Below are positions 3,541 through 25,736 of a DNA stretch of 35,721 nt, in pieces. The translations under genes and the position numbers were made by a program. Position 1 is the first letter of the stretch, and each line of letters begins with the position of its first letter. Source of the stretch: Gammaproteobacteria bacterium (GTDB lineage: Bacteria > Pseudomonadota > Gammaproteobacteria > Magnimaribacterales > Magnimaribacteraceae); the NCBI GenBank assembly GCA_015660645.1, contig DQKS01000093.1, positions 1 through 35,721 of the forward strand. The letters run 5' to 3'. Under the pieces are notes generated by a model. That model saw nothing but the letters and a program-made list of their open reading frames with translations, was not told the origin of the DNA and ran no database searches.

Positions 3541-3960
3541 TTATTTTTGGTTACCTTTTATTGCGAAGTAGATCCCAAGCAATAACAGAAATAACTGTTC
3601 ACTCGCAAAAAAAGTTCGCCCTTCTCCAAAAAATATACCCCAGTTTGAATGAGCGATAAGAATTGCACCTATCATGATTATCCCAATAACCCCTCCAGAT
3701 ATTCGGGTTAATAGATTTCCAATTATCCCTGAAAGCAATCCACCTAGAATAATACCTAGTCCAGCTAAGACTTCTCCCCATGCAACCATTAGAGCGGTTG
3801 GATAGCCTATGTTGGATGCTAACCATCCAGATTCATCTAAAGGTAGTTTTCCAAACCCATGCAAAAAGAAAGATATACCAAGGCCAAGCCTTATTAGCCA
3901 ATCAGCAACACCATTTAATGGTTTTGCCAGTTTTTCTAAAAAATTATTTAAAGTCTCCAT
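3541..3960 (-). CDS. DoxX family inner-membrane protein
   Basis: A 139-residue protein with four predicted membrane helices. The N-terminal RLGLGISFFLHGFGKL pattern is typical of DoxX/DoxD-like proteins, as are the later glycine-rich helices (GEVLAGLGIILGG, IMIGAILIAH). The family is loosely tied to quinone- or thiol-linked redox at the membrane; no specific reaction can be assigned here. The start ATG lies only 2 nt after the terminal stop of a degraded Bax-inhibitor-like gene, so it may once have been co-translated with it downstream of typA. Confidence 0.8.
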   Translation of the reverse strand: METLNNFLEKLAKPLNGVADWLIRLGLGISFFLHGFGKLPLDESGWLASNIGYPTALMVAWGEVLAGLGIILGGLLSGIIGNLLTRISGGVIGIIMIGAILIAHSNWGIFFGEGRTFFASEQLFLLLLGIYFAIKGNQK

Positions 3961-3962
3961 AT

Positions 3963-4211
3963 TTACCCCATTGCTTCAAGAAGTTCTAATAGTAAGTTTA
4001 TAACATCTAAGTAAATAGAAAAACCTATCTAAAAGGCCGTGTTCCAATTATTAATACCTGCATCAGATTGTTGTTTCAATCTGTTGAAGTCATAAAGCAA
4101 ATAAAAGATAAAAGTTATACTTCCAAAAATTCCCATGGCTCTTTTTTTCCAGCTAGAAAAATTAACAAATATGCTCAGCAAATTCCACGAAACAAGAATG
4201 CCTAAAGGAGA
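3963..4211 (-). pseudogene. Remnant of a Bax inhibitor-1/YccA-like membrane protein with an in-frame stop
   Basis: The gap between typA and doxX is not empty. On the minus strand one frame encodes 60 residues, a TAG at 4029-4031, then 21 residues ending in TAA at 3963-3965. The two parts read through as one protein end: a membrane helix (GIFGSITFIFYLLY), a YDFNRL segment, NNWNTAF, the stop, then IGFSIYLDVINLLLELLEAMG. YD-x-RL followed by a final SxYLDxINLxLxLL helix is the C-terminal pattern of Bax-inhibitor-1/YccA proteins. A full gene would be about 220 codons, so the N-terminal two thirds are missing (typA ends at 4223) and the rest carries a nonsense codon. Recognition is by eye, and an assembly or sequencing error at the stop cannot be excluded. 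Confidence 0.6.
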
Positions 4212-4222
4212 TTATAAAATAT

Positions 4223-6001
4223 TTAGTTTCTTTTACGAAGTCTTATAGATTTAGGTGTTACTTCAACCAACTCATCATCTTCAACGAATTCAAGGGCTTG
4301 TTCCAGCGTGTGTTGGATGTGCGGAGTGAGTATAAGGTTTTCGTCGGTTCCGGCTGCCCTTACGTTTGTTAATTGCTTTGCTTTTGTAGGATTGACAGGT
4401 AAGTCATTGTCTCTAGAGTGCAAACCAACTATCTGACCTTTGTAGACCTCATTGCCATGCCCAACGAACATTCTTCCTCTTTCTTGAAGGTTGAAGAGCG
4501 AGTAGGCCAAAGTTTTTCCAGAGATCATAGAAACGAGAACACCATTTTGCCTTTTTGCTACTTCTCCTACCTTGGCTGGACCATAATGGTCGAAAACACT
4601 AGTCATGATTCCTGTGCCGTTGGTAAGTGTTAGAAAATTAGACCTAAAACCTATCATGCCTCTTGAGGGCGCTATAAAATCAAGCTTCAGTCTTCCTCTT
4701 CCGTCGGGTTCCATATTTTGAAGATCTGCTCTTCTTAGGCCCATTTCTTCCATAATTGACCCTTGGTGCTGCTCTTCAATATCAATAACAATTTGCTCAA
4801 AAGGTTCATGAATTTCGCCGTTTATTTCTTTTTGTATAACTTCAGGTCGAGAAACACCAACTTCATAATTCTCTCTTCTCATATTTTCTATCAAAACTGA
4901 TAGGTGCAACTCTCCTCTACCAGAAACTATAAACTTATCTGGGCTATCTCCAGGCTTTACTCTTAAAGCAACATTGTGTATCAACTCTTGTTCCAGTCTT
5001 TCTTTTAAGTTCCTAGACGATATGTATTTTCCTTCTCGGCCAGCAAAAGGGGAATCATTGACTTGGAAAGTCATGCTCACAGTGGGTTCGTCAACGGAGA
5101 GAGGGGGTAGAATTTCTACGGATTCAGGATCACATATTGTGTCAGAGATGTTAAGTTTGTCTATGCCAGTTATGCAAACTATATCTCCTGCTTGAGCTTC
5201 TTTAACATCAACCCGCTCTAGCCCTCTGTAACCCATCACTTGAAGTACTCTAGCCTTCTTTTTTGAACCATCAGTACCTGCAACAATTACTTGCATGTTA
5301 GGTTTCATCTTACCTCTTTTTATGCGACCAACCCCTATAACCCCTACATAACTGTTGTAGTCAAGGGCGCTTATTTGCATTTGAGTAGGCCCTTCATCAT
5401 TTACTTCGGGGGAACTAACCTTATCTATTATTAAGTTAAGTAAAGGCGTCATGTCGTCAGCAAGATTCTGATCATCCAAACCTGCCACTCCATTTAGAGC
5501 TGAGGCATATATAATTGGGAAGTCTAATTGTTCGTCGGTTCCCCCCAACCTGTCAAATAAATCAAATACTTGATCCAAGACCCAATCTGGTCTTGCTCCC
5601 GGTCTGTCAACTTTGTTTATAACAAGAATAGGATTGAGGCCTTGATCAAATGCTTTTTGCGTTACAAATCGAGTTTGAGGCATGGGCCCTTCAACCGCAT
5701 CGACTAATAGCAATACAGAATCAACCATAGAGAGGACTCTTTCTACCTCTCCTCCAAAATCAGCGTGCCCAGGGGTATCAACGATATTAATACGATGACC
5801 ATTCCATTCTATTGAAGTATTTTTTGCAAGAATTGTGATTCCTCTTTCTCTCTCTTGATCATTTGAGTCCATGATTCTTTCAGTTGTCATGCTCTTTCTG
5901 TCCAAAGTCCCTGATTGTTGTAGTAGCCTATCGACAAGAGTAGTTTTCCCGTGATCTACATGGGCAATGATAGCTATATTTCTAAGGTTTTTAACGGTCA
6001 T
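4223..6001 (-). CDS. typA: Ribosome-associated GTPase TypA/BipA
   Basis: Translational GTPase that binds the 70S ribosome and is needed for growth under stress or cold and for late 50S assembly. The 592-residue protein has the G1 motif AHVDHGKTT near residues 13-21, G3 DTPGHADF, and G4 NKVD, followed by EF-G-like domains II, III and V and the BipA-specific C-terminal domain ending in basic residues. Length fits the family. The start ATG is directly preceded by a plausible -10 box (TATAAT at 6022-6027), giving a short leader. It is flanked downstream by the Bax-inhibitor remnant. Confidence 0.96.
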
Positions 6002-24378: not shown

Positions 24379-24456
24379 TGGTGGGCTAGACAGGATTTGA
24401 ACCTGTGACCTTCTGCTCCGGAGGCAGACGTTCTATCCGTGCTGAACTACTAGCCC
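24379..24456 (-). tRNA. tRNA-Arg (anticodon CCG)
   Basis: The minus strand folds as a full cloverleaf. The acceptor stem is GGGCTAG/CTAGCCC, the D stem GTTC/GAAC, and the anticodon stem TCTGC/GCAGA with loop CTCCGGA, giving anticodon CCG, which reads the Arg codon CGG. The T arm is ACAGG-TTCAAAT-CCTGT. Discriminator A and the CCA end are encoded (24379-24382). A TATAAT at 24466-24471 on the same strand lies about 10 nt upstream of the 5' end and may be its promoter. It sits alone between two plus-strand genes. Confidence 0.97.
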
Positions 24457-24465
24457 TATTCATGG

Positions 24466-24471
24466 ATTATA
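24466..24471 (-). promoter_or_regulatory. -10 box for tRNA-Arg
   Basis: A perfect TATAAT on the minus strand, with the mature tRNA 5' end about 10 nt downstream. No clear -35 box is visible. Confidence 0.4.
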
Positions 24472-24551
24472 TAGAACTTCATAGTTGTATTTTATTAATT
24501 GAGAGCTCCTGCTATTATTCCCTACCTCTTTTAGAGACACATGGAGTAATA

Positions 24552-25736
24552 ATGGCCGCTAAGAACAAATGGCAAGCATTGAACTGGAAAGATCCATTTT
24601 TATTAGATCAGCAGTTAACCGCAGATCAACGCTTGATCCGCGATACAGCGCATCAGTATGCTCAAGGAAAGTTATTACCGAGGGTTAGGGAGGCTTTTAG
24701 AAATGAAGAAACTGATCCTGCCATATTTCAAGAGATGGGTTCTCTTGGTTTATTAGGTTCAACCATTGAGGGATACGATTGCCCCGGTGTGGACTACATG
24801 AGTTATGGATTGATAGCCAGGGAAATCGAAAGAGTGGATTCAGGATATAGATCGATGATGAGTGTTCAGTCTTCTCTAGTCATGTACCCCATTTATGCCT
24901 TTGGCACAGAAGCTCAGCGTAAAAAATACCTTCCCAAGCTTGCGTCCGGAGAGTTGATAGGGTGTTTTGGTCTAACCGAGCCAGACTATGGGTCTGATGC
25001 AGGTGGATTAATAACACGAGCAAAATCAGTAGAAGGTGGTTACTCCCTTTCTGGAGCTAAGATGTGGATTTCCAACAGCCCAATAGCAGATGTGTTTGTA
25101 ATATGGGCTAAAAATGATGATGGGATTATAAAAGGTTTTATATTAGAAAAAGGCATGGAAGGTTTAAGTGCACCAAAAATTGAAGGAAAACTTGCCTTAA
25201 GAGCTTCAATAACTGGACAGATTGTAATGGAGGATGTTTTTGTAACTGAGGAGCAGCTTCTTCCAGAAGTTGAAGGTTTAAAAGGCCCTTTTAGCTGTTT
25301 AAATAACGCACGCTATGGAATAGCTTGGGGAGCTTTGGGAGCAGCAGAGACTTGTTGGATAACATCTAGAGACTACGTTATGGATAGAAAGCAGTTTAAT
25401 AAGCCTCTAGGAGCTAATCAACTTATTCAATTAAAGCTTGCCGATATGCAAACTGACATCGCACTTGGTTTGCAGGGATGTTTTAGGGCAGGCCAATTAA
25501 TGGATGAAGGAAATATAGCACCGGAATTAATTTCCTTAATTAAAAGGAATTCAACCGGCAAGGCTTTAGAAATAGCTCGTCAATCTCGAGACATGTTGGG
25601 TGCTAATGGTATATCAGAAGAATACCCTATTATGCGACACATGGTAAATCTTGAAGTGGTAAATACCTATGAAGGCACGAACGACATTCATGCTCTTATC
25701 TTAGGAAGAACCCAAACAGGTATAGCTGCTTTTTAA
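24552..25736 (+). CDS. gcdH: Glutaryl-CoA dehydrogenase (acyl-CoA dehydrogenase family)
   Basis: Flavoenzyme that oxidises and decarboxylates glutaryl-CoA to crotonyl-CoA in lysine and aromatic catabolism. From the ATG at 24552 it has 394 residues, the usual GCDH length. The N-terminal [13 protein letters not shown] pattern is typical of GCDH, as are [22 protein letters not shown], and the catalytic glutamate in [16 protein letters not shown]. The start is fixed by GGAG at 24543-24546; the open frame continues upstream through the tRNA gene on the other strand, which cannot be coding. No dedicated LysR regulator or CoA transferase lies next to it here. Confidence 0.9.

Follow-up and report, generated by a model that had tools for sequence, protein, structure and literature searches.

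A truncated, stop-interrupted remnant of a Bax inhibitor-1-type gene at the typA-doxX locus of a SAR86 genome

The window, the stretch of 35,721 nt analysed here, is a whole contig of a 1.4-Mb MAG that is 86% complete and consists of 102 contigs. Near one end of the window, typA and a doxX-family gene are neighbors on the minus strand and both are intact (Table 1). The interval between them has 262 nt and is the second largest gap between main genes in the window, where the median is 14 nt. It contains a reading frame for the C-terminal end of a Bax inhibitor-1 (BI-1) type protein, which is interrupted by one TAG and ends at a TAA separated from the doxX ATG (at 3960, minus strand) by nucleotides 3961-3962. 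None of the other frames is open along the length of the interval, in which neither promoter-like nor terminator-like sites were found. The earlier note had described a degraded gene at 3963-4211 on the minus strand with these two stop codons, and its coordinates proved to be exact. It had also stated that the N-terminal two thirds of the gene were absent. The remnant corresponds to residues 198-279 of the intact 279-aa protein of G010 (L098:9158-9994), so the first 71% of the gene is indeed missing, and the rest is joined about 12 nt past the typA stop codon.

Table 1. Features of the typA-doxX region of the window
Feature	Position	Strand	Remarks
typA/bipA, upstream neighbor	4223..6001	-	Intact, 592 aa
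Deletion junction	4212..4222	-	typA 3' flank resembling that of G002, then the middle of A
C-terminal remnant of BI-1 paralogue A	3966..4211	-	82 codons, one TAG
In-frame TAG	4029..4031	-	Sense codon at this place in intact A copies
TAA, original stop of the lost gene	3963..3965	-	Separated by 2 nt from the doxX start codon
doxX-family gene, downstream neighbor	3541..3960	-	Intact, 139 aa

Since the TAA is so close to the doxX start codon, any ribosome binding site of doxX would have to fall within the final bases of the remnant, and the fragment might have been retained for its 3' end, as the leader or the ribosome binding site of doxX. We consider this very improbable. About 20 nt would be enough for such a role, but the fragment has 246 nt, and a sigma-70-like promoter was not found between typA and doxX.

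The family of the remnant was identified with profile searches. When the TAG was replaced by X, the 82 residues matched PF01027 (Bax1-I) with an E value of 7.4e-9 and 36.1 bits, which is above the gathering score of 34.1, and the match covered positions 133-206 of the 207 in the profile. This upheld the earlier assignment of the fragment to the C-terminal end of a Bax inhibitor-1 protein. The intact A and B proteins of related genomes, including A of G017, scored 51-56 bits against the same profile. Furthermore, a profile of the A/B family together with the remnant matched the YetJ chains in the PDB (E = 6e-8) over its C-terminal 108 positions. YetJ of B. subtilis (PDB 4PGR/4PGW) is the solved bacterial member of the Bax inhibitor-1/TMBIM family (PF01027). 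The remnant matches this family in its C-terminal region, but only the last 82 residues are left and they contain a stop. The intact A and B proteins are longer (254-287 aa) and match PF01027 over their C-terminal part only. The remnant can be aligned without gaps to the C-termini of five intact syntenic A proteins, with 68-78% identity (74-78% for the copies of genus g4 and 68% for G017), whereas A and B are 43-46% identical overall. The PF01027 match and the gap-free alignment to intact syntenic proteins exclude a chance resemblance, and the identity values assign the remnant to the end of paralogue A. NCBIfam gave no match for A, B, or doxX. A structure prediction of intact A (AlphaFold2, five sequences) was poor (mean pLDDT 56.6, pTM 0.35) and was not used for a fold search.

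The C-terminal acidic pair, which consists of the aspartates in the L-x-D-F/L-N and Y-L-D-x-I-N motifs, is retained in the remnant. Both aspartates align with YetJ through the profile, and we take the two to be the pH-sensing pair of YetJ. As the frame is open on either side of a single stop and conserved residues including this pair are kept, the fragment could in principle still be translated as a small BI-1 protein, either with the TAG read through or in the form of two short peptides. However, no ATG leads into the frame and the only possible starts are a TTG or an internal ATG. The TAG falls between the two aspartates, and just the last two to three of the seven membrane helices remain, so the remnant is not a complete seven-helix membrane protein. 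Translation of the fragment as a small BI-1 protein is therefore highly improbable.

The earlier note had read the fragment as a step of gene loss, and the typA-doxX interval was compared in relatives. In G010, which belongs to the same SAR86 family, the gene order is typA, abm, B (254 aa), A (279 aa), and doxX. A is also directly upstream of doxX in G005, G018, G020, and G017, and thus all five genomes have an intact homolog at this locus. In other SAR86 genomes (e.g. AG-319-O13, L098), the intact A and B genes share with the remnant their position close to doxX and their orientation, but unlike the remnant they are full length and open. The two congeners of the window differ from this arrangement. 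G002 has typA, a 395-aa dehydrogenase-like gene, an intact B, and doxX, and so it has B only. In G001 (SAR86B bin FRAM18_bin302), typA is followed by a remnant of B that starts at residue 113, and then by doxX. This remnant (L030:592-1018) begins at the base right after the typA stop. Similar to the remnant in the window, it is an N-terminally truncated and decaying BI-1 gene just past the typA stop, but it derives from paralogue B, is longer, and contains both a frameshift and a stop. In genus g6, most members lack a BI-1 gene at the typA-doxX locus. We also considered a decayed B in the gaps between abm and A of G005 and G020, which was rejected; another small open frame is found there. Across the family, genes are gained and lost in this interval, and its content differs from genus to genus (L033-L037, L070-L085), with different combinations of abm, the 395-aa dehydrogenase-like gene, BI-1 A/B, and genes for a ~350-aa His/Met-rich protein and a small membrane protein of 131 aa. 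G041 has doxX and the last part of the dehydrogenase-like gene on two contigs, C17 and C27 (L084, L085), perhaps as a binning duplicate.

The TAG and the junction are known from one assembly, a single MAG of the species, and assemblers can be confused by tandem paralogues such as those of G010, which has both. The true genome might thus carry a full-length A, with the contig collapsed over a tandem of B and A and a base error at the TAG. A collapse of this kind would leave a gene that starts as B and ends as A, but the BI-1 N-terminus is missing for both paralogues. In addition, the junction sits in the 3' flank of typA, and the other paralogue is truncated in a similar way in a congener with a separate assembly. 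An assembly artifact is therefore improbable. We conclude that the sequence is very probably a pseudogene of paralogue A that derives from a putative ancestral tandem of B and A and would yield no functional BI-1 protein.

How the pseudogene arose can be proposed from the direct results, which are the homology, the synteny, the truncation, the stop codon, and the parallel remnant of B in the sister species. We infer that the ancestor had tandem BI-1-type (TMBIM/YetJ-like) genes B and A between typA and doxX, together with abm and the dehydrogenase-like gene. Subsequently, either one deletion or several, a number that belongs to the reconstruction as does the order of the events, would have eliminated B and the other inserted genes along with the first 71% of A, with an endpoint just past the typA stop. 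The C-terminal third would have been left without an ATG start and would later have acquired the stop codon. The process as a whole would be the neutral decay of a dispensable gene. Since G002 has B only, G001 has a remnant of B, and the window has a remnant of A, the losses of the two paralogues were separate and took place inside a single genus. In the window and in G001, which have the truncated copies, the deletion reaches almost to the typA stop, and deletions that end there would be expected if typA is under selection. Whether the typA-doxX interval is a recurrent deletion site is an even call; at such a site tandem BI-1 paralogues would be lost reciprocally, with deletions repeatedly ending a few bases from the typA stop, and close species would keep different paralogues.

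A PF01027 search of the whole assembled genome found no intact copy of A or B elsewhere. An intact BI-1 gene of a different type (PF12811 type) is located on contig C23, and it is 56% identical to its counterpart in G002, which is PF12811. Because other BI-1-type genes remain in the genome, the decay of A does not imply a loss of BI-1 function as such. A third, classical BI-1 gene (E = 3.7e-52) was found at 4093-4509 of contig C37 (G000:C37, L039), where it is cut by the contig end. This 4.5-kb contig also contains Hsp20-like and glycosyltransferase-like genes. No close relative of its BI-1 gene or of the neighboring gene was found in the SAR86 genomes searched, so C37 may not belong to this genome and may be a contaminant of the MAG.

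Between the remnant and the intact A copies of genus g4, pN was 0.21-0.22 and pS was 0.78-0.83. The intact A of G017 gave 0.19-0.22 and 0.71-0.75, respectively, against the same copies. Therefore, protein change in the remnant is not in excess, as its pN is near that of the intact G017 gene although typA of the window is more distant (84% identical to genus g4, compared with 90-91% for typA of G017). With 82 codons the resolution is low, and an excess of a few changes would escape notice. Conservation similar to that between intact copies points to a recent inactivation, as the earlier note had proposed, and selection must have acted on the gene over most of the period since the genera split. 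A fragment that was still of some use would be well conserved too. As for a role as the leader of doxX, recent descent accounts for conservation of the coding type. A recently inactivated pseudogene remains the preferred reading.

The locus gives a small but clear view of ongoing gene loss in an uncultured marine lineage with small genomes, and its best feature is that, at the same locus, sister species carry what is left of different tandem paralogues. A further lesson is that the fragment should not be counted as a BI-1 gene, nor the gap as empty. The step of gene loss had been described as rare; the loss itself stands, and the decay is ordinary in kind. The remnant is a fairly recent dead gene in an interval of variable gene content, and no new mechanism is involved. 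Open papers on SAR86 and Bax inhibitor were not found, and those on SAR86 and pseudogenes had nothing on the typA-doxX locus in their titles or abstracts. Elsewhere in the window, the minus strand carries a tRNA-Arg gene (CCG) at 24379-24456, which extends over the beginning of the plus-strand open reading frame 24405-25736; the true start of this frame probably lies further downstream.
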